Below are positions 5,662-62,031 of a stretch of 64,000 nt of DNA, one piece after another. The translations under genes were made by a program, and so were the position numbers. A model generated the notes under the pieces. That model searched no databases. It had not been told where the DNA came from and saw only the letters and a list, made by a program, of their open reading frames with translations. The stretch's first letter is position 1. Every line of letters starts with the position of its first letter. Source of the stretch: Paenibacillus andongensis (GTDB lineage Bacteria; Bacillota; Bacilli; Paenibacillales; NBRC-103111); contig NZ_CP104467.1 of assembly GCF_025369935.1 (NCBI RefSeq), positions 6,207,001-6,271,000 on the forward strand, written 5' to 3'.

Positions 5662-5665
5662 GGAC

Positions 5666-6020
5666 GAATAAGTGCGTTTTCCGCGCTTAATCTGCTCGGA
5701 TGCGCGGGACAATGTGCTTGAGAAGCTGCTTTTCAGCTTCTCAGACTCTACCACGAGCTTCGGCTCGCCAAGCTCTCGCTGAAAGCGCTTTTATTGCGCC
5801 TATTTGTTTGGGGGCGAACGATTAAGCGCGTTTTCCGCGCTTAATCTGCACGGATGCGCGGGACAATCCGTTTGAGAAGCTGTTTTTCGGCTTCTCAGAC
5901 TCTACCCATGAGCTTCGGCGCGTCAAGCTCTCGCTGAAAGCGCGTTTTCTGCGCCTATTTGTTCGGGGGCGAACGATTAAGCGCGTTTTTCGCGCTTAAT
6001 CATCTCTAAAGCGCGGGACA
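5666..6020. repeat. 154-bp tandem repeat, about 2.3 copies, hairpin-rich
   Basis: The motif GCGTTTTCCGCGCTTAATCT starts at 5674 and recurs at 5828, with a variant at 5983, giving a period of 154-155 bases. The intervening sequence (GATGCGCGGGACAAT, GAGAAGCTG, AGACTCTACC, CAAGCTCTCGCTGAAAGCGC, GGGGGCGAACGATTAAGC) is also conserved. Each unit holds several palindromes: AAGCGCG/CGCGCTT, GAGAAGC/GCTTCTC, GAGCTTCGG/CAAGCTC. No open frame or promoter is evident. It looks like an intergenic structured repeat element. Confidence 0.85.
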
Positions 6021-51126: not shown

Positions 51127-53487
51127 TTATTTCAATTCGACGATCGTAACTCCTGCTCCGCCTTCGTTGTAATTCCCCATACGGTAGCTCTTCACATGTT
51201 TATGACGACGCAAATATTCCTGCATGCCAGTACGCAGCACACCCGTTCCTTTGCCATGAATCAAGTACACTTGACCCAAATTGCCCAAGAAAGATTCATC
51301 TAGGAATCGATCTGCCTCGATCAAGGCTTCCTCCATGTTGAGACCGCGCATATCCAGTTCCATCCGAATGTTATCATCTCGTGTTCGTTTGACGGTTGTA
51401 GCCACTTGATGTGCTGGCTTTTTCTGAGTTGTGCTGCCGACCTTTTCGAGATTCGACAACTCGACCTTCATTTTCATAATGCCCAACTGCACCGTTGCTT
51501 CTGTGGCGCTAACAATTTCTACGACGTGACCCTTCTGACCTAGGGTCACGACACGCACTTCATCCCCAGCCTCGATTCTCTCAGGTCGCTTCTTCGCCGC
51601 GCGAACCTGCTTCTCGCGCAGTTCCGGCGCCGCCTGGTCGAGGCGGCGCTTCGCTTCTACCAGCCGGTGATCCTTGACGCCACCGGCCTCCTCCTGAGCC
51701 ATGCGCCGCAGATCGGCGATGATTTCATCGGCCTCGCGGCGCGCCTTGGCGACAGCCTCACGCGCATCGCGTTCGGCCTTCTCGAGCAGCTTATCGCGTT
51801 GCTCATCGAACTTGGCCTGCTGAGCTTCTAACGTTAGGCGCATCTCTTCCGCCTCTCGTCTCATCCTCTCAGCGCTTTGGCGCTCAGCTTCCGCAATCAG
51901 ACGGTTCTCCTCAAGCGACGCGATCATTGATTCGACGCGCTTATCTTCCTCGCCCACTTGCGTACGTGCATGCTCAATAATACGTTTTGATAAGCCTAGA
52001 CGCTCTGCAATCGCAAACGCATTACTTCGACCAGGAACACCAACAAGCAAGCGATAAGTTGGACTAAGCGTTTGTATATCAAATTCCATGCTTGCGTTAA
52101 TGGTGCCTTGCTTTTGATAGGCATAAGCCTTTAGCTCGGAATAGTGTGTCGTTGCAATAATTCGGCAGCCGATTTGATGAATATAATCCAAAATGGAGAT
52201 CGCTAAAGCTGAACCTTCAGCAGGATCTGTACCTGCGCCAAGTTCATCCAGCAAAACCAAGCTCTTTGGTGTCATATCCCTTAATATGCTTATGATATTC
52301 GTCATATGACTCGAAAACGTGCTTAAATTCTGCTCAATGCTCTGCTCATCACCAATATCCGCATAAATCGCATCGAATACACATAACTGGCTTCCTTCCT
52401 CAGCAGGAACAAACAAGCCTGACATCGCCATTAAGCTAAGGAGTCCCACTGTTTTGAGGGAGACTGTTTTACCTCCTGTATTAGGCCCAGTCACGATGAT
52501 TTGTGAGAAGTCATTGCCCAACTCCAAATCAAGCGGCACAACGGAATCAGCCGCGATAAGCGGATGCCGGCCACGCTTTATTTTAATGAAGCCGCGATCA
52601 TTTAATCTAGGCATTGTAGCTTTCAGTTCCCTAGCCAGACCAGCTTTTGCAAAAGTAAAATCAAGCTCAGCCAATTGATCTACATCCAGCACAAGCAAAT
52701 CCACTTGTTCAGCAACGAGCTCTGAGAGTGCTCGTAAAATCTTCTCAATCTCAACTTCTTCCTTAAACTTTAATTCACGAATTTTATTATTTAATTGAAC
52801 AATAGCATCTGGTTCAATGTATAGCGTCGCACCCGATGCTGACTGATCATGAATCATCCCGCCAAAGCTGGATCGGTACTCCGATTTAACCGGGATTACA
52901 AAACGGTCGTTACGAATAGTGATCAATACGTCCTGTAACATTTTCTGAACAGATGAGTTGCGAAGCATCTGCTCTAATTTCTCGCGGACTCTTCCTTCAC
53001 CTGTGCGTAATTCGCTTCTCACACGAGCCAGTTCAGGGCTCGCACCGTCAACAACAACAGCATTCTCATCGATACAGCTGTTAATTTTATCTTCTAAAGA
53101 TTTATTTTCTGTGAGTAACTCTACCTGCCCTTTGAGCATCGGAATCGCGTATTCTTCATGAACCGCGAGAACAAATCGCTTTAACCTGCGTGTACCGAAC
53201 ATAGTCGTAGAAATATCGAGCAGTTCTGAAGGGTTTAACATCCCGCCAATTCTAACCCGATGTAATGAAGATCTAATATCACGAATCCCACCAAAAGGGG
53301 CATTTCCCTTCAATCGCTCTACATTAACAGCCTCATCAGTTGCTTGCAGCCGAAGCTTGACGAGTTCAAAATCACCCTTAGGTTCAAGCTTTTCCACGGC
53401 ATCCTTACCAAGCGAAGTAGATGCATGATGAGCAAGTTTATGTAAAATCTTCTGATAATCTAATGTTTTAATTATTTTCTTATTCAA
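51127..53487 (-). CDS. mutS2: MutS2 family ATPase/endonuclease
   Basis: 786 residues, normal for MutS2. Walker A GPNTGGKTVS in the ABC-type ATPase domain, DELGAGTDPAEGSALA as Walker B, and THYSELKAYA. A long coiled coil (about 510-630) joins to the C-terminal Smr nuclease domain (LDMRGLNMEEALIEADRFLD, YLIHGKGTGVLR). It has been linked to suppression of recombination and to ribosome rescue in Bacilli. TTG start with AAAGAGG upstream. The coiled-coil part (51590-51830) is clearly more GC-rich than its flanks. Confidence 0.95.
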   Translation of the reverse strand: MNKKIIKTLDYQKILHKLAHHASTSLGKDAVEKLEPKGDFELVKLRLQATDEAVNVERLKGNAPFGGIRDIRSSLHRVRIGGMLNPSELLDISTTMFGTRRLKRFVLAVHEEYAIPMLKGQVELLTENKSLEDKINSCIDENAVVVDGASPELARVRSELRTGEGRVREKLEQMLRNSSVQKMLQDVLITIRNDRFVIPVKSEYRSSFGGMIHDQSASGATLYIEPDAIVQLNNKIRELKFKEEVEIEKILRALSELVAEQVDLLVLDVDQLAELDFTFAKAGLARELKATMPRLNDRGFIKIKRGRHPLIAADSVVPLDLELGNDFSQIIVTGPNTGGKTVSLKTVGLLSLMAMSGLFVPAEEGSQLCVFDAIYADIGDEQSIEQNLSTFSSHMTNIISILRDMTPKSLVLLDELGAGTDPAEGSALAISILDYIHQIGCRIIATTHYSELKAYAYQKQGTINASMEFDIQTLSPTYRLLVGVPGRSNAFAIAERLGLSKRIIEHARTQVGEEDKRVESMIASLEENRLIAEAERQSAERMRREAEEMRLTLEAQQAKFDEQRDKLLEKAERDAREAVAKARREADEIIADLRRMAQEEAGGVKDHRLVEAKRRLDQAAPELREKQVRAAKKRPERIEAGDEVRVVTLGQKGHVVEIVSATEATVQLGIMKMKVELSNLEKVGSTTQKKPAHQVATTVKRTRDDNIRMELDMRGLNMEEALIEADRFLDESFLGNLGQVYLIHGKGTGVLRTGMQEYLRRHKHVKSYRMGNYNEGGAGVTIVELK

Positions 53488-54788: not shown

Positions 54789-55394
54789 TCAAAGCACTTG
54801 ACAATACCTTAAATAGAGAGGATACAAATAAACGGATAAGAATGCATCCATCCACTTTCTAAACAAAACATCCTCAACATACTTAATGCTCTTGGAATTA
54901 GTGAACATATATGTACAGAAGTTGGTGTTGACCTTTCGAGAGGTGACAGTTGTTTGCTTTCTTTTATTTTGGCTGGATTCTACTCTTTGTTTATGCATCC
55001 TATCCGCACCTGAACCCATACGTGAGTATTGCTTATATAAAGCTTGCTGTAGCTTCTCCAGCATCAACTTAGCAGTTCGATAATTCACTTCAAGTAAGTT
55101 TGCGAATGCTGGAATTGAATAAGTTTGGCGATCCTGGATCAATGCTCGTATAGCTTTGAACCAAACTATCAAGGGAAGCTTAGATTTATGCATAACCGTT
55201 CCAGCAGTTAATGAAATTTGCGTGCGGCATTCTTTACACTCCAATAAATTACGAGTCCTTACTAAATAAAATAAACGATTATCGCAACTCGGGCAGCTAA
55301 ACCCACCTGCCCACCGTCTTTTCGTCAAAAATCTTACACAATCTTCCTCTGTCTTGAGAGTGTCATCCAGCGATTCAAATAAATATGTATCCAT
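54789..55394 (-). CDS. Truncated IS1595-type transposase-like protein (zinc ribbon only)
   Basis: 201 residues. The N-terminal CPSC (C34, C37) and CKEC (C53, C56) zinc ribbon, followed by TQISLTAGTVMHKSKLPLIV and a helix-turn-helix-like part (TYSIPAFANLLEVNYRTAKL), is the typical start of IS1595/ISXO2 transposases. The DDE catalytic domain of the full proteins is absent; the last 70 residues look unlike it. GAGGGG precedes the ATG by about nine bases. It may be a broken transposase or a retained DNA-binding remnant. Confidence 0.7.
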   Translation of the reverse strand: MDTYLFESLDDTLKTEEDCVRFLTKRRWAGGFSCPSCDNRLFYLVRTRNLLECKECRTQISLTAGTVMHKSKLPLIVWFKAIRALIQDRQTYSIPAFANLLEVNYRTAKLMLEKLQQALYKQYSRMGSGADRMHKQRVESSQNKRKQTTVTSRKVNTNFCTYMFTNSKSIKYVEDVLFRKWMDAFLSVYLYPLYLRYCQVL

Positions 55395-55577: not shown

Positions 55578-55802
55578 CAACTAATTAATAATTTGATTGC
55601 AGTATTTCCGGTCTCGTCTTGTTCAGGGATATAGAATGTTTTAAGTCTTCGTGTTCTTAATGATTGCATATACCACAGAAAACACAATATCTGGAGATAT
55701 CGGTTCAAGTAAAGGTATTTTTCGAAAATATAGGGTTAAAGTTCTTGCCATCTCGCAAATTGCGAGACTCGTTAGGAGTAGTAGCTTTGGCTTTCGGCCT
55801 AT

Positions 55803-56119
55803 AGTGGGACTGGAGCTGGAGCTGGAGCTGGAGTTGTGGGTACGGGTGTGGGTGTGCTGTGGCTGTGGCTGTGGCTGTGTGGTTGTGGTTGTGGTTGTGG
55901 CTGTGGCTGAGGAAGTGGGTTTGGGTTTGGCTGTGGCTGAGGAAGTGGGTTTGGGTTTGGCTTTGGCTTTGGCTTTGGCTTTGGCTTTGGGTTTGGGTTT
56001 GGGTTTGGGTTTGGGTTTGGGTTTGGGTGTGGCTGTGGCTGTGGCTGTGGGTGTGGCTGTGGTGGCTGTGGCTGTTGTTGTGGGTGTGGCTGTGGTGGCT
56101 GTGGCTGTTGTTGTGGTTG
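55803..56119. repeat. Hexanucleotide low-complexity tract with G-run array
   Basis: Successive blocks of imperfect hexamers: GGAGCT, GGCTGT, GGTTGT, GGCTTT, GGGTTT (seven G-triplets from 55989 to 56027) and again GGCTGT. All G/T-rich on the plus strand. Open frames exist on both strands: the minus one (55641-56138) reads as Thr/Ala/Pro/Lys repeats, and the plus ones as Val/Trp/Leu/Gly repeats. None has a ribosome site. The open frames are expected from a three-divisible repeat without stops, so I do not annotate a gene. Confidence 0.85.
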
Positions 56120-56135
56120 TAGATACTACAGAAAA
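56117..56135 (-). repeat. 19-bp inverted repeat, right copy
   Basis: TTGTAGATACTACAGAAAA, exact reverse complement of 55515-55533. Spacing between outer ends is 621 bases. Confidence 0.85.
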
Positions 56136-56221
56136 CATATGTGTAGTGGATGTAAGTCGGGGAGTGCTGGTGCTGCTGCTCGTACTGATACAGGTACTTG
56201 GCTGCGTGGTGTAACTTATAA

Positions 56222-56257: not shown

Positions 56258-56812
56258 CTATAGGGGGATTCCTTGTTTCCAGAGTTCTTGGAGTTTTCCT
56301 GCTATATTGGGTAATTCGTTAATTAAATACGGAGCTATGGTTGAGCTTGAGAGCAGCTTTTGAAGTCCATCTGAGGGCATGATGGTGATAACATTGACGG
56401 CTATAATGATGATCAAAAGTGCTTCTGCTAAGCCCAACAATGCGCCGCTCCAACGGTTGATGAAGTTCAGGCCAGGGGTTTTTGCTAAAATATTAAGTGC
56501 TCTGCCTACGATGACTAGTGCGAATTTTACGCCAAAAAACAATATAGCAAAGGCTAAAGCGTTTAGGATGTAGGTATCCAGATTTAGGCCTTTTACGATA
56601 AATTCGTATTTTTGGTAATTTTGATAGGTAGGCAGTGAAACTGCGTTTCGAAGCAGAGGGGCAAAATCCCTGTAAAAATAAAATGCAACGAGGTAGGCGA
56701 GAACAAAACCTGAGAGTGAAACAATCTGGGCAATAAATCCTCTGAAGTAACCAAGCAGCAGACCTAAAGCCACTATCGACAACATGACATAGTCTAATGT
56801 ATTTAGTGTCAC
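56258..56812 (-). CDS. CvpA family membrane protein
   Basis: 184 residues with four hydrophobic segments (DYVMLSIVALGLLLGYFRGF is the typical CvpA start; GFVLAYLVAFYFY; ALAFAILFFGVKFALVIVGR; GALLGLAEALLIIIIAVNVI). CvpA proteins are linked to colicin V export in E. coli and to cell-envelope functions elsewhere; the true role is uncertain. GTG start seven bases after the zapA-like stop, hence one transcript. The same zapA-cvpA(yshB)-mutS2 neighbourhood is known from B. subtilis, here with extra sequences inserted. Confidence 0.88.
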   Translation of the reverse strand: MTLNTLDYVMLSIVALGLLLGYFRGFIAQIVSLSGFVLAYLVAFYFYRDFAPLLRNAVSLPTYQNYQKYEFIVKGLNLDTYILNALAFAILFFGVKFALVIVGRALNILAKTPGLNFINRWSGALLGLAEALLIIIIAVNVITIMPSDGLQKLLSSSTIAPYLINELPNIAGKLQELWKQGIPL

Positions 56813-56818
56813 TGTGGA

Positions 56819-58423
56819 TTACCTGCCAGGACTGTCGGTTTCTACAAGTTCGATCCACTCATTGTATTCATTCTGCAGTTTAGCGTATTCCTCGCGCAGT
56901 TCTCTATACTCTTCTTTGATGGTTTGAAGTTCTTTTTGTTGCGCTTCATCGTTCAAGCTTTGGTGCATTAACTCTTCTTTTTCTCTACGGGCTTGGGCTA
57001 AAATTCGTTCTTTTTCTTCTTCAAAATGTTGAGTAAGGGAGATTCGCTCTAATTGCTGCTGCTCTAGTAAGGCGTCAATTTGAGCTTGATATTGTGTTAT
57101 AATGGTTGATTTTTGGTCCTCGAGCTGTTGAATAATGTTTGTTTGTCGCTCTTGGAATTCTCCAACTAGATTACCTTTATCTTGCTCAAAACGTAGAACC
57201 TTAGCATCAGCCTCATCCTGATAAAGGGCGGTGAGTGTTTCTATTTCCTCTTGGTGCGCCGTTGTGAGTGTTTCTATTTCTTCTTGATGTTGATTTGTAA
57301 TTATATTTATTTTCTCTTTATGTTGGTTTGAAATTGTATTTATTCTTTCTTGAAGCTGGCTCGAAATTGTATCTATTCGCCCTTGAAGTTGGTTGGTGAT
57401 AGTTTCAAGTTCCGTTTGATGTTGAGTTGTAATGGATTCAAGTTCCATTTGATGTTGGGTTGTAATAGTTTCTAGTTCTGTTTGGTGTAGAGTAGTGGTG
57501 TTTTCTAGTTCCTCATGATGTTGATTAACGAGTGTTTCCTTTTCCATCTGATACTGATTAGAAAGCTTGGAGATCTCTTCTTGATGTTGTATGCTTATGA
57601 TTTCTTTATCTTGCAGATGCTGCTGCATGAGTGCTTCTTTGTCTTTTTGATATTGCTGATTTAACATTTCTTTGTCTTGTTGGTGGATTTCTGAGAGGGT
57701 CAGTTTTTCGACTTTGTGTTGTTCGTTCAGCTTTTGCAGCTGGTGTGCCTTTTGTTGTTTCTCTTGTTCGAATTGATGCTTTGTTTGTTGGTGTTGTTGT
57801 TTTTCTTGATCCAGCTGTTGTCTTACTTGTATTTGTTGACGTTTTTCCTGCTCTAGCTGTTGTTTGATTTGTTCTAGTTGTTGCTTGATTTGTTCTTGCT
57901 GCAGTTTAGCTTGTTCTTGCTGTTGTTTAGCTTGCTCTTGTTGTTGTTGTTTGGATTGTTCTTGCTGCTGTTTAGCTTGTTGCAGTTGTTGCCTCAGTTG
58001 TTCTTGTTCTTGTTTTGCTTTCTGCACTTCATGTTTCAATTGCTCTTGCGTTTGGTTCCCTTGAACTAGCTTAGCATTTTGTTCACTTATGGATGTCTGT
58101 TGTTGCTCGTATTCTTGTTTCAATTCGTTAAATTTAACGATTAATTTGTCATAGGAGGCTTTGGTCGCTTCTTGGTCCTTTTGTGCTTTGCTTAGTTCTT
58201 CCATGATTTCGTTCATACGGAAGCATTCATCAGCCATGTTTACGGCAGCTAGAACGGCGATTTTCTGTGAATCTAGCCGCGGATAGCCTTTTGCAATCCG
58301 AAACATTTGTTCGTTCACGTATTCAGCTACTCGCTTCATGTAATTGGTGCTGGTGCTTGCTTTTAATTTGTATTGGTGTCCATATATATCAACGGTAATC
58401 CTCGTTTTATCTTCAGCGTTCAC
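56819..58423 (-). CDS. zapA: ZapA cell-division protein with very long Q-rich coiled coil
   Basis: 534 residues against roughly 85-140 in usual ZapA. Residues 1-85 form a normal ZapA head (TRITVDIYGHQYKLKASTST, YVNEQMFRIAKGYPRLDSQK, IAVLAAVNMADECFRMNEIM). Residues from about 85 to 525 are one continuous coiled coil: first Gln-rich (KQQQEQAKLQQEQIKQQLEQ), then with an imperfect repeat around TTQHQMELESITTQHQTELE, then charged. ZapA bundles FtsZ filaments at mid-cell. GTG start with GGGAGG upstream. The repeats suggest expansion by slippage; whether the long form is fixed in the lineage is unknown. Confidence 0.88.
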   Translation of the reverse strand: MNAEDKTRITVDIYGHQYKLKASTSTNYMKRVAEYVNEQMFRIAKGYPRLDSQKIAVLAAVNMADECFRMNEIMEELSKAQKDQEATKASYDKLIVKFNELKQEYEQQQTSISEQNAKLVQGNQTQEQLKHEVQKAKQEQEQLRQQLQQAKQQQEQSKQQQQEQAKQQQEQAKLQQEQIKQQLEQIKQQLEQEKRQQIQVRQQLDQEKQQHQQTKHQFEQEKQQKAHQLQKLNEQHKVEKLTLSEIHQQDKEMLNQQYQKDKEALMQQHLQDKEIISIQHQEEISKLSNQYQMEKETLVNQHHEELENTTTLHQTELETITTQHQMELESITTQHQTELETITNQLQGRIDTISSQLQERINTISNQHKEKINIITNQHQEEIETLTTAHQEEIETLTALYQDEADAKVLRFEQDKGNLVGEFQERQTNIIQQLEDQKSTIITQYQAQIDALLEQQQLERISLTQHFEEEKERILAQARREKEELMHQSLNDEAQQKELQTIKEEYRELREEYAKLQNEYNEWIELVETDSPGR

Positions 58424-58447
58424 TTTTTTATATCCTCCCTTAGATGA

Positions 58448-58517: not shown

Positions 58518-60971
58518 CTATTTTCTTAACTCTGCCTCATATTGTTGTTCAAGGGTTTGCACAACTTTGGCATGGAGCTCTGTTACTTCTTCATCCAACA
58601 GTGTTCTTTCTGCGTGACGGTATACTAGAGCAATGGCTACGCTTTTGCGATTTGCGCCTAAACGTTCTCCTGTATAGATATCGAATACTTGAATAGATTC
58701 CAACAAGTCTCCGGCAACTTCGGCGATGGTTTGCTCCATATGACCTACTGGTACACTAGTGTTCACTACTACAGCAAGATCACGCCCAATGGATGGATAA
58801 CGCGGCAGCAATTTATATACGATTGCATCTCCAGCAGCTTCCAAGATTGGAGAAAGTTCAACCTCTAGCACGTAAGTGTCATCAAGGTCACGCTGCTGTT
58901 GGACGGTAGGATGCAGTTGGCCGATTCGACCTATGACTTGCTCACCTTCAGCTGTGTTTAAGAGGAGCTCCGCTGTTCGGCCCGGATGGAAACCATCTGG
59001 TGATGCAGATTTATAGGTGAGCCCTTTAACGCCTAGGTAATTTACAAGACGGTCAAAAATACCTTTGATATCATAAAAGTCGACAGCTTCGGACTTCTGT
59101 GCCCAATGTGCTTGTCGGCGTTTGCCTGTCAATACGATGGAAAGGAGAAGCTTCTCTTGCGGCAAGGCTGTAAGTAGAGACTCATCTGTGATGAATACTT
59201 TGCCGATTTCGAAAATAGCTACGTCATCCATCGTACGGTTACGATTGTAGCTAACAACGTCTAGCAGATGCGGCAGCAAGCTAGTACGTAGTTGGCTGCG
59301 ATCCTCGCTCATTGGCATAGCGAGCGAGATGGGCTTCGCCGCGGGGTATAGACCCGGCAGAGAAACGGTTTGATCCGGCTGCGTGAAGGAGTAAGTGATG
59401 ACTTCATGCAGTCCGCTTTGAGTCAAAAGATTCCGAGTGATACGACGGATCGACTGCTCTTTGGTCAAGGAGCCGGGCGTCGTCACACCGGTCATTAAGG
59501 TTGTCGGGATGTTATCGTAGCCGAAAAGGCGAGCTACTTCTTCGATCAAATCGACATCCCGTGTGATGTCTCCGCGGCGGCTTGGCACATGCACGAGCAG
59601 CTTGCCTTCGCCTGCCTGCTCGAATGTGAAGTGCAGGCGCTCTATGATTTGACCCATCTCGGCCAAAGAAAGTTCAGTGCCGAGATAATTATTCACACGG
59701 TCAGCAGCAAGCTCAATGCTGACCGGCTTGTGTGTGCCTGCTACGGCTTCTACGATACCGTCAGAGACTTGACCTGCAGCGTACTGAGCCATTAACGCAG
59801 CAGCACGGTTCAATGCCGGAAGCACCGCTTCCGGGTTCACCTCTTTCTCGAAGCGAAGACTCGCTTCAGAGCGAAGGCCTAGCTGGCGCGATGTGCGGCG
59901 CACAGAGCTGCCAGCGAACTTGGCGGATTCGAGCAGAATTCGTGTGGTGCCTTCGGTCACTTCGGAGTTAGCGCCGCCCATAACACCGGCAATCCCTACC
60001 GGCTTCGTGCCGTCCGTGATGAGCAGCATGTGCGGCTCTAGCGTACGCTCCACATCGTCGAGCGTGACGAGCTTCTCGCCGGCCTCAGCGAGGCGTACGT
60101 CGATGTGACCATTGTTCAGCTGATCAGCATCGAAAGCGTGAAGCGGTTGGCCGTATTCAAGCATCACAAAATTGGTGATGTCTACAATGTTGTTGATCGG
60201 GCGGATACCAGCCGCCATCAAACGGTTCTGCATCCACAGCGGAGAAGTGCCGACGCGCACGCCTTCGATAAGGCGAGCCGCGTAGTGCGTGCACTGCTCC
60301 GTCGCTGTGATCTTCACACTGATGCGATCAGCAGCTTTCACTGCGGCTGTTCCAGCCGCCCCACGCGCAGCTTCCGCATCAGGCAGTTTGACGCCGCGTC
60401 CCAGGATCGCTGCGATCTCATAAGCAGCTCCGAGCATGCTCAAGCAATCGGAGCGGTTTGGTGTCAGGTCAAGCTCTAATACCTTGTCGTTAATAGCAAG
60501 GACATCAAGAATTGAGCTGCCGATCTCGGTATCTTCAGGCAATACTAGGATGCCTTCTTGTATTTCCTTCGGCAGCAGCTTATCGTTCAGACCAAGTTCT
60601 TTGGCTGAACAAATCATTCCTTGTGACTCTACACCGCGCAGCTTAGCTCGCTTGATTTGCAATCCGCCGGGAAGCACGGCTCCAATCATAGCGACAGGCA
60701 CCTTTTGTCCCGCATCTATATTTTTCGCCCCGCAAACGATTTGCAAGTCTTCGCCTTGTCCGGCATCAATGATACATACACTTAATTTATCTGCGTCTGG
60801 GTGTTTTTCGCGTGATTTTACAAATCCAACGACTACGTTCGATACACCCTTATTGCGATCTTCCACGATATCCACTTCGATGCCGCTTCGGGTCAGTTTT
60901 TCTGCTAATTCCTCGGCTGTGAAGCCTGATACATCTACATATTCCGATAACCATTGATAAGAAACTTTCAT
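58518..60971 (-). CDS. pheT: Phenylalanyl-tRNA synthetase beta subunit
   Basis: 817 residues, normal length. N-terminal tRNA-binding (EMAP-like) domain at about 40-150 (VGFVKSREKHPDADKLSVCI), then B3/B4 editing domain (INNIVDITNFVMLEYGQPLH), B5 (RGDITRDVDLIEEVARLFGY), a catalytic-like core, and a C-terminal ferredoxin-fold anticodon-binding domain (YPSIGRDLAVVVNTSVPVGH). It forms the alpha2-beta2 enzyme with PheS. AAGGAGGGG precedes the ATG; the gap to pheS is 25 bases. Confidence 0.96.
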   Translation of the reverse strand: MKVSYQWLSEYVDVSGFTAEELAEKLTRSGIEVDIVEDRNKGVSNVVVGFVKSREKHPDADKLSVCIIDAGQGEDLQIVCGAKNIDAGQKVPVAMIGAVLPGGLQIKRAKLRGVESQGMICSAKELGLNDKLLPKEIQEGILVLPEDTEIGSSILDVLAINDKVLELDLTPNRSDCLSMLGAAYEIAAILGRGVKLPDAEAARGAAGTAAVKAADRISVKITATEQCTHYAARLIEGVRVGTSPLWMQNRLMAAGIRPINNIVDITNFVMLEYGQPLHAFDADQLNNGHIDVRLAEAGEKLVTLDDVERTLEPHMLLITDGTKPVGIAGVMGGANSEVTEGTTRILLESAKFAGSSVRRTSRQLGLRSEASLRFEKEVNPEAVLPALNRAAALMAQYAAGQVSDGIVEAVAGTHKPVSIELAADRVNNYLGTELSLAEMGQIIERLHFTFEQAGEGKLLVHVPSRRGDITRDVDLIEEVARLFGYDNIPTTLMTGVTTPGSLTKEQSIRRITRNLLTQSGLHEVITYSFTQPDQTVSLPGLYPAAKPISLAMPMSEDRSQLRTSLLPHLLDVVSYNRNRTMDDVAIFEIGKVFITDESLLTALPQEKLLLSIVLTGKRRQAHWAQKSEAVDFYDIKGIFDRLVNYLGVKGLTYKSASPDGFHPGRTAELLLNTAEGEQVIGRIGQLHPTVQQQRDLDDTYVLEVELSPILEAAGDAIVYKLLPRYPSIGRDLAVVVNTSVPVGHMEQTIAEVAGDLLESIQVFDIYTGERLGANRKSVAIALVYRHAERTLLDEEVTELHAKVVQTLEQQYEAELRK

Positions 60972-60996: not shown

Positions 60997-62031
60997 TTAC
61001 AAATGTAAGAATTGCTTTAAGAACCGCAAATCGTTCGTGTAAAAATGACGGATATCTTCAATCCCGTATTTCAGCATCGCAATGCGCTCAACGCCCATTC
61101 CAAATGCAAAACCTGTATATTCTTTCGGGTCATATCCACCCATCTCCAGAACGCGCGGATGTACCATGCCCGCTCCGAGGATTTCTAACCAGCCCGTTTG
61201 CTTACAAGTACGGCAGCCAACGCCGCCACACATTGCACAACTCACATCCACTTCAACGCTCGGCTCTGTGAAAGGGAAGAAGCTTGGACGCAAGCGAATT
61301 CTCGTTTCTTTGCCGTACATTTCTTGCACGAATTGAAGCAAAGTTCCTTTTAAATCACTCATACGAACGTTACGGTCGATGACCAGGCCTTCGATTTGAG
61401 TAAACATATGGGAATGTGTCGCATCATCATCATCACGGCGGTATACTTTGCCCGGACAAATGATTTTGATCGGAACTTCCCCTTTGCGTTTCTCCATCGT
61501 TCTAACTTGAACTGGGGAGGTTTGTGTACGCATTAGAATTTCATCCGTGATATAGAACGAGTCCTGCATATCGCGAGCTGGGTGATCCTTCGGCAGATTA
61601 AGTGCCTCAAAATTGTAGTAGTCCTGCTCTACCTCTGGACCTTCAGCGACTGTGTAGCCCATCCCTATAAAGATGTCTTCAATTTCTTGAATAACTTTGC
61701 TTAAAGGATGTACAGCACCTTGCTGCGATGGACGACCTGGCAGTGTTACATCAATCATTTCCGCACGCAAACGGTTTTCGGTTTCTTGTTGTTGGTACGC
61801 CGATTGCTTTTCTTCAATAACAGTTTCGATGGCTGCACGAACGTCGTTCGCTACTTGACCGATAACGGGTCTTTCTTCTGCACTTAATGCACCCATACCG
61901 CGCAATACCTCGGTTAATGGTCCTTTTTTACCCAAATACTTAATACGTAGATCGTTCAACTCCTGCTGACTTTGTACGCCGCTTAGCTCCTGCAGCGCTT
62001 CCTGCTTCAAAGCTTCTAACCGCTCTTTCAT
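60997..62031 (-). CDS. pheS: Phenylalanyl-tRNA synthetase alpha subunit
   Basis: 344 residues. N-terminal coiled coil, then the class II catalytic core with motif 1 region ([31 protein letters not shown]), motif 2 ([20 protein letters not shown]) and motif 3 ([20 protein letters not shown]). [18 protein letters not shown] insertion has paired cysteines, as in the Bacilli enzymes. It forms phenylalanyl-tRNA in the cytosol. GGAGGG precedes the ATG. Controlled by the T-box upstream. Confidence 0.96.

Follow-up and report, generated by a model that had tools for sequence, protein, structure and literature searches.

ZapA is among the most widespread proteins of the bacterial Z ring and is generally regarded as a rigid cross-linker of small size. 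The known ZapA proteins are ~85–140 residues in length. The present analysis concerns a ZapA of 534 residues encoded in a 64,000-nucleotide stretch of the Paenibacillus andongensis genome (GCF_025369935.1, contig NZ_CP104467.1, positions 6,207,001 to 6,271,000), hereafter the window. ZapA forms an antiparallel dumbbell tetramer in which C-terminal helices connect two FtsZ-gripping dimer heads; ZapA has to be tetrameric to function, and breaking the C-terminal helix junction abolishes its function (PMC12754632, PMC12216130). FtsZ is caught through its N-terminal tail, with Phe2 engaged in Gram-negatives and, as inferred by the authors, Phe4 in Gram-positives (PMC12216130). The ZapAs of Bacillus subtilis/Geobacillus stearothermophilus (2mmv), E. 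coli (4p1m), and Klebsiella (9isk) are similar to the Paenibacillus protein in head domain, fold, and C-terminal helix. In contrast, these short ZapAs lack a long rod, while in the P. andongensis protein ~420 residues, and in its relatives from a few tens to ~1790, separate the head from a conserved C-terminal cap.

The giant ZapA and its parts

The gene and the segments of its product are as follows.

56819–58423, minus strand: zapA, encoding the giant ZapA; 534 codons, GTG start, Shine-Dalgarno sequence GGGAGG at 58434–58439
58184–58423, minus strand: ZapA head, residues 1–80, predicted to bind FtsZ; beta-beta-alpha and the start of a long helix
57704–58183, minus strand: N-terminal part of the rod, residues 81–240; Gln-rich heptad coiled coil with a period of 3.50–3.58 and heptad-sized insertions and deletions (indels) in relatives
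56927–57703, minus strand: C-terminal part of the rod, residues 241–499; coiled coil, predominantly of the hendecad (11-residue) type, encoded by DNA with 33-bp tandem repeats
56822–56926, minus strand: conserved C-terminal cap, residues 500–534; TIKEEYRELREEYAKLQNEYNEWIELVETDSPGR and one residue before it

The protein is a genuine ZapA by its sequence domain, the fold of its head, and its locus. The Pfam ZapA domain (PF05164) spans residues 9–100 (E 2.5e-15, 57 bits against a cut-off of 23.8), and the family profile of the head matches G. stearothermophilus ZapA (2mmv) in the PDB with an E-value of 1.7e-23. As the head was poorly modelled in the full-length AlphaFold run, owing to a shallow alignment, residues 1–110 were modelled separately, which gave a pLDDT of 91 for the head. 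The ten best Foldseek matches of this model are all ZapA structures, including 2mmv, 1t3u, 1w2e, 4p1m, and 9isk, the last being FtsZ-bound Klebsiella ZapA. The gene sits in its orthologous place, in the usual order pheS–pheT–zapA–cvpA–mutS2, with the GGGAGG ribosome site ten bases upstream of the GTG start, and it encodes the only ZapA copy in this 7.64-Mb single-contig genome. The same zapA neighbourhood occurs in other Bacillota outside Paenibacillales. A length of 534 residues falls outside the usual range of ZapA, a range that is customary and not defining. The stricter NCBIfam equivalog PRK14126, a model calibrated on short ZapAs, gives the giant ZapA a score of 59.6, below its cut-off of 80. 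Automatic annotation through PRK14126 may therefore miss giant ZapAs, and with them a cell-division gene of the large and practically useful genus Paenibacillus.

The single FtsZ of the genome begins with MFEFD, placing a Phe at position 4. By analogy with other bacteria, the head would be expected to bind FtsZ through this N-terminal hook.

The rod has the features of a long coiled coil, namely a heptad/hendecad hydrophobic repeat, a predicted helical structure, and the absence of proline, with none between residue 48 and residue 532. Over its first part the tail has a hydrophobic period of 3.50–3.58, as in a left-handed heptad coil, and toward its end one of 3.68–3.76 (hendecad), with intervals between them that have no single clear peak. 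Most of 116 proteins display a period of 3.50–3.58 or 3.60–3.68, while shuffled tails give weak peaks, and only 36 prolines are present among 91,580 rod residues across the order. AlphaFold places the head and helices at 51–152, 172–306, and 317–529 in the full-length protein. A preliminary description of this DNA had proposed a ZapA head with a long coiled-coil tail, Gln-rich and internally repeated, and these properties are confirmed. The tail is 24% Gln and is also rich in Glu and Lys; tandem DNA repeats of 21, 33, 63, and 66 bp, multiples of 7 or 11 residues, lie at 57278–57523 and 57795–58014. The description of the coil as uninterrupted is nearly right, the AlphaFold model having two short breaks of low confidence, and the proposed length of ~60 nm compares well with the ~67 nm computed at 0.1485 nm per residue.

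Conservation and length variation across Paenibacillales

The giant ZapA is a feature of most of Paenibacillales and not of one genome. The head was found in 30 of 30 genomes of the genus, where it is almost invariant and where intact proteins range from 303 to 822 residues. A survey of the family (104 genomes in 22 genera) gave a match in 102, nearly all of them long, and the neighbouring large family f10 is nearly all long as well. The lengths reach 523 residues in P. alginolyticus, 663 in P. chondroitinus, 810 in P. pectinilyticus, 845 in P. curdlanolyticus, 859 in P. validus, 1310 in P. eucommiae, and 1656 in P. chitinolyticus; the P. andongensis copy belongs among the shorter giants. In the smaller families of the order ZapA is short or of middle size, apart from two long forms (828 residues in f2 and one of 688 in f7). 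Among the matches listed for sampled Bacilli outside the order, open frames do not exceed 258 residues. Stop-to-stop frame lengths can mislead, and each open reading frame (ORF) was extracted and checked; in the wider Bacillota sample the longest frames, where examined, are not coiled-coil ZapAs. Candidate giant ZapAs in some Bacillota outside Bacilli were rejected on this basis, as their length came from an upstream open frame or from disordered or neighbouring sequence.

An intact frame ending in the cap is present at 118 of the 136 loci of the order examined, with 138–1892 residues and a median of 814; pheT lies upstream of zapA in 109 of these 118. The other 18 loci comprise five contig ends, six N gaps, two frameshifts, one in-frame stop, and four short ZapAs that lack the strict cap motif. 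Farther downstream, a cap remains recognizable in all five N-gap loci that were checked, in both frameshifted loci, and in the locus with the in-frame stop. Two findings had been named as fatal to the proposed protein, a stop right after the head in all relatives and an assembly error in the repeat. None of the relatives has such a stop, and the single-contig genome and the many independent assemblies refute such an error. The one in-frame stop lies within the rod, at codon 183 of the gene in the draft genome of Paenibacillus sp. N3.4 (L043 in G022, the same gene as L141), with the cap in frame downstream, and reflects a mistake in the draft sequence or a genuine truncation.

The preliminary description was accurate as to the giant form and incomplete, since the protein is order-wide, ends in a near-invariant cap instead of simply running out, and has a rod of labile length that is under purifying selection. 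The cap motif L..EY.KLQ.EYNEWIEL is nearly invariant in the 118 intact proteins, with the reservation that the motif search demanded an E[YFH][NHK][ED]W core, so that the search itself accounts for part of the invariance of the core letters; it made no such demand on the flanking L, EY, and KLQ. Even a ZapA of 138 residues that has hardly any rod (L122) retains the cap. Head and cap are the conserved ends of the protein, and the rod is inserted between them. The possibility that the cap is common to another protein of the genome was rejected, as its single strong match there is zapA. In a Bacilli family outside the order, a 258-codon open frame (L292 in G429) encodes a ZapA of ~240 residues whose tail is a coiled coil and whose end, EHSELRIEYEDFLKLLDDQ, resembles the cap. 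Judging from this sequence, a cap and a rod of modest length may have existed before Paenibacillales arose.

The rod is under strong purifying selection along its whole length. In 16 close pairs, the ratio of nonsynonymous to synonymous substitution rates (dN/dS) is 0.08–0.18 for the rod, 0.00–0.21 for the head, and 0.00–0.14 for the cap. Together with the scarcity of proline, these values identify the rod as a translated, functional protein segment and not as drifting repeat DNA. The length of the rod is very labile and changes mostly by units of 7 and 11 residues. Comparison of close relatives gave 111 indels of ≤33 residues, and the lengths of 97 can be written as sums of 7 and 11, where 33% would be expected by chance, in pairs that are not independent. 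This step matches both the coiled-coil repeats and the DNA repeats, and therefore selection and slippage are inseparable on indel evidence alone. Within one genus, two genomes of 5.8 and 10.3 Mb (G047 and G046) encode ZapAs of 251 and 1310 residues (L061 and L062), a natural pair for the effect of rod length.

The genes and other elements around zapA are listed below.

58518–60971, minus strand: pheT, directly upstream of zapA (Pfam)
60997–62031, minus strand: pheS, upstream of pheT (Pfam)
56258–56812, minus strand: cvpA, Colicin V production protein family (Pfam PF02674, E 7e-32), starting 6 nt past the zapA stop
51127–53487, minus strand: mutS2, the next gene of the conserved cluster (Pfam MutS_V, Smr)

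The interval between cvpA and mutS2 contains a simple repeat of the hexanucleotide type (TGTGGC/TGGGTT), ~270 bp in length at 55847–56120 within a minus-strand ORF (55641–56138), of which one frame encodes Thr-Pro/Lys-Pro/Lys-Ala runs. The same interval harbors a 201-residue ORF on the minus strand (54789–55394) that carries only the zinc ribbon of an IS1595-type transposase and is possibly a remnant or a domesticated inserted piece. Elsewhere in the window, at 5664–6020, a 155-bp unit is repeated in tandem, with 2.3 copies and 88% matches.

Candidate architectures of the giant ZapA

A spacing or tethering role is the natural inference from the tail, and the preliminary description proposed that the tail could space FtsZ from the membrane, the nucleoid, or division partners. 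Long-range cross-linking of FtsZ to FtsZ fits the data at least as well, because ZapA normally acts as a tetramer held together by the C-terminal helices (PMC12754632, PMC12216130). The reading tentatively preferred here, at somewhat less than even probability, is that the only ZapA of the cell has been remade into a long-reach FtsZ cross-linker with a parallel rod and with caps that join dimers. The head dimer would grip FtsZ through the FtsZ N-terminal hook, and its two chains would continue as a parallel two-stranded rod of ~67 nm here and up to ~270 nm in relatives. The cap would occupy the place of the tetramer-forming C-terminal helix of short ZapAs and pair with its counterpart on a second dimer. 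Such a complex would be an elongated dumbbell in which rod length determines how far apart the linked FtsZ filaments lie, in contrast with the tight ladder of normal ZapA.

Several points weigh against this cross-linker. The cap could equally bind another protein, its self-association being put at a little under an even chance, and FtsZ binding by the giant head is a prediction from its sequence. The full-length monomer model has a pTM of 0.25, with low-confidence short helix breaks at 153–171 and 307–316. Moreover, the very fast change in length sits uneasily with a precise ruler.

The strongest alternative, possible and still rather unlikely, is a tether in which the head holds FtsZ and the cap docks a different partner, such as a chromosome-bound, membrane, or septal-synthesis protein. 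One chain would then do the job that elsewhere takes ZapA and a second, coiled-coil protein as adaptor, which is ZapB in E. coli and ZauP in Caulobacter. In keeping with a docking site, the cap is more conserved than self-assembly strictly needs (L, EY, KLQ, and NEW are near-invariant) and has one match in the genome, and both ZapA-ZauP-ZapT and ZapA-ZapB-MatP join the Z ring to the chromosome terminus via coiled coils (PMC7858052). However, no candidate partner was found, and any partner would have to tolerate a reach of ~10 to 270 nm. The genus-mean length of ZapA does rise with genome size (Spearman 0.60, 46 genera), in line with a tether; within the two big families the trend vanishes (0.37 and 0.10, not significant), and the correlation is not relied on here since it may only reflect phylogeny.

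In an improbable third arrangement, the dimers overlap along the whole rod as an antiparallel tetramer, with each cap beside the opposite head and the filament spacing equal to one rod length. Known ZapA tetramers are indeed antiparallel, the C-terminal tail of enterobacterial ZapA fills the groove of the FtsZ N-terminus (PMC12216130), and the arrangement would hold head and cap side by side however long the rod, which would account for both being conserved. The rod itself argues otherwise: within the genus the heptad part comes first and the hendecad part later, and a full overlap would force heptad onto hendecad. In a mirror test of proteins with mixed heptad/hendecad rods, 1331 of 2311 mirror pairs agree against 1479 expected. 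The stretches are thus asymmetric about the middle, which speaks against a full-rod antiparallel overlap and for parallel pairing.

The rod could also be a passive spacer whose exact length and end are irrelevant, growing and shrinking by 21-/33-bp slippage while selection only purges proline and frameshifts. The repetitive DNA, the indels of repeat-unit size, and the labile length (251 against 1310 residues in one genus) are as such a spacer would predict. In contrast, rod dN/dS values of 0.08–0.18 indicate stronger constraint than a mere helix needs, the end is a near-invariant cap, and in two families nearly all genomes have the giant form, with shortening toward the ancestral size rare; this alternative is about as improbable as the antiparallel one. 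Draft assemblies do break here, as six loci contain N gaps, two are frameshifted, and one has an in-frame stop, yet an assembly or annotation artefact is refuted by single-contig genomes, many independent assemblies, 118 loci in which the reading frame stays open to the cap over as many as ~1880 codons, and purifying selection.

A more speculative picture, and a rather unlikely one, is a Paenibacillales Z ring in which the ZapA rod keeps FtsZ filaments tens to hundreds of nanometres apart. The rod would then be an evolvable molecular ruler, its length given by its number of 7- and 11-residue units, and the divisome would have a layout unseen in model bacteria, in a lineage seemingly without EzrA. 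Cross-link distance might control ring width, filament alignment, or nucleoid coupling, and naturally occurring ZapAs that share head and cap, with rods from a few tens to ~1790 residues, offer a direct test of such control.

Relation to known long coiled-coil systems

The search of the open-access literature yielded neither a study of Paenibacillus ZapA nor a description of its long form, subscription papers lying outside the search, and the long coiled-coil ZapA with a conserved cap is apparently an undescribed form of the known ZapA family. EzrA (PF06160), a long helical FtsZ regulator of Bacillota, resembles the giant ZapA in being long and helical. Unlike the giant ZapA, EzrA is membrane-anchored and built of spectrin-like repeats that form a 12-nm arch (PMC4243239). 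PF06160 has no match in this genome at E 0.001, with B. subtilis as a positive control, and the few signals elsewhere in the order are weak and resemble cross-matches to coiled coils. The giant ZapA was considered as an EzrA substitute and rejected in that role, as EzrA is weak across the order, including families with short ZapA, and its loss therefore does not track rod length.

KfrA-type plasmid proteins share the layout of a globular N-terminal head and a long alpha-helical tail (PMC7821693). Their head binds DNA in an unrelated role, and the likeness is one of layout only. The closest functional parallels are ZapA-ZapB in E. coli and ZapA-ZauP-ZapT in Caulobacter, where the Z ring likewise has an extended layer of coiled coil connected with ZapA. 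The coiled coil of ZapB or ZauP is a separate protein, while in Paenibacillales it is part of the ZapA chain itself, with no shown sequence relation between the two.
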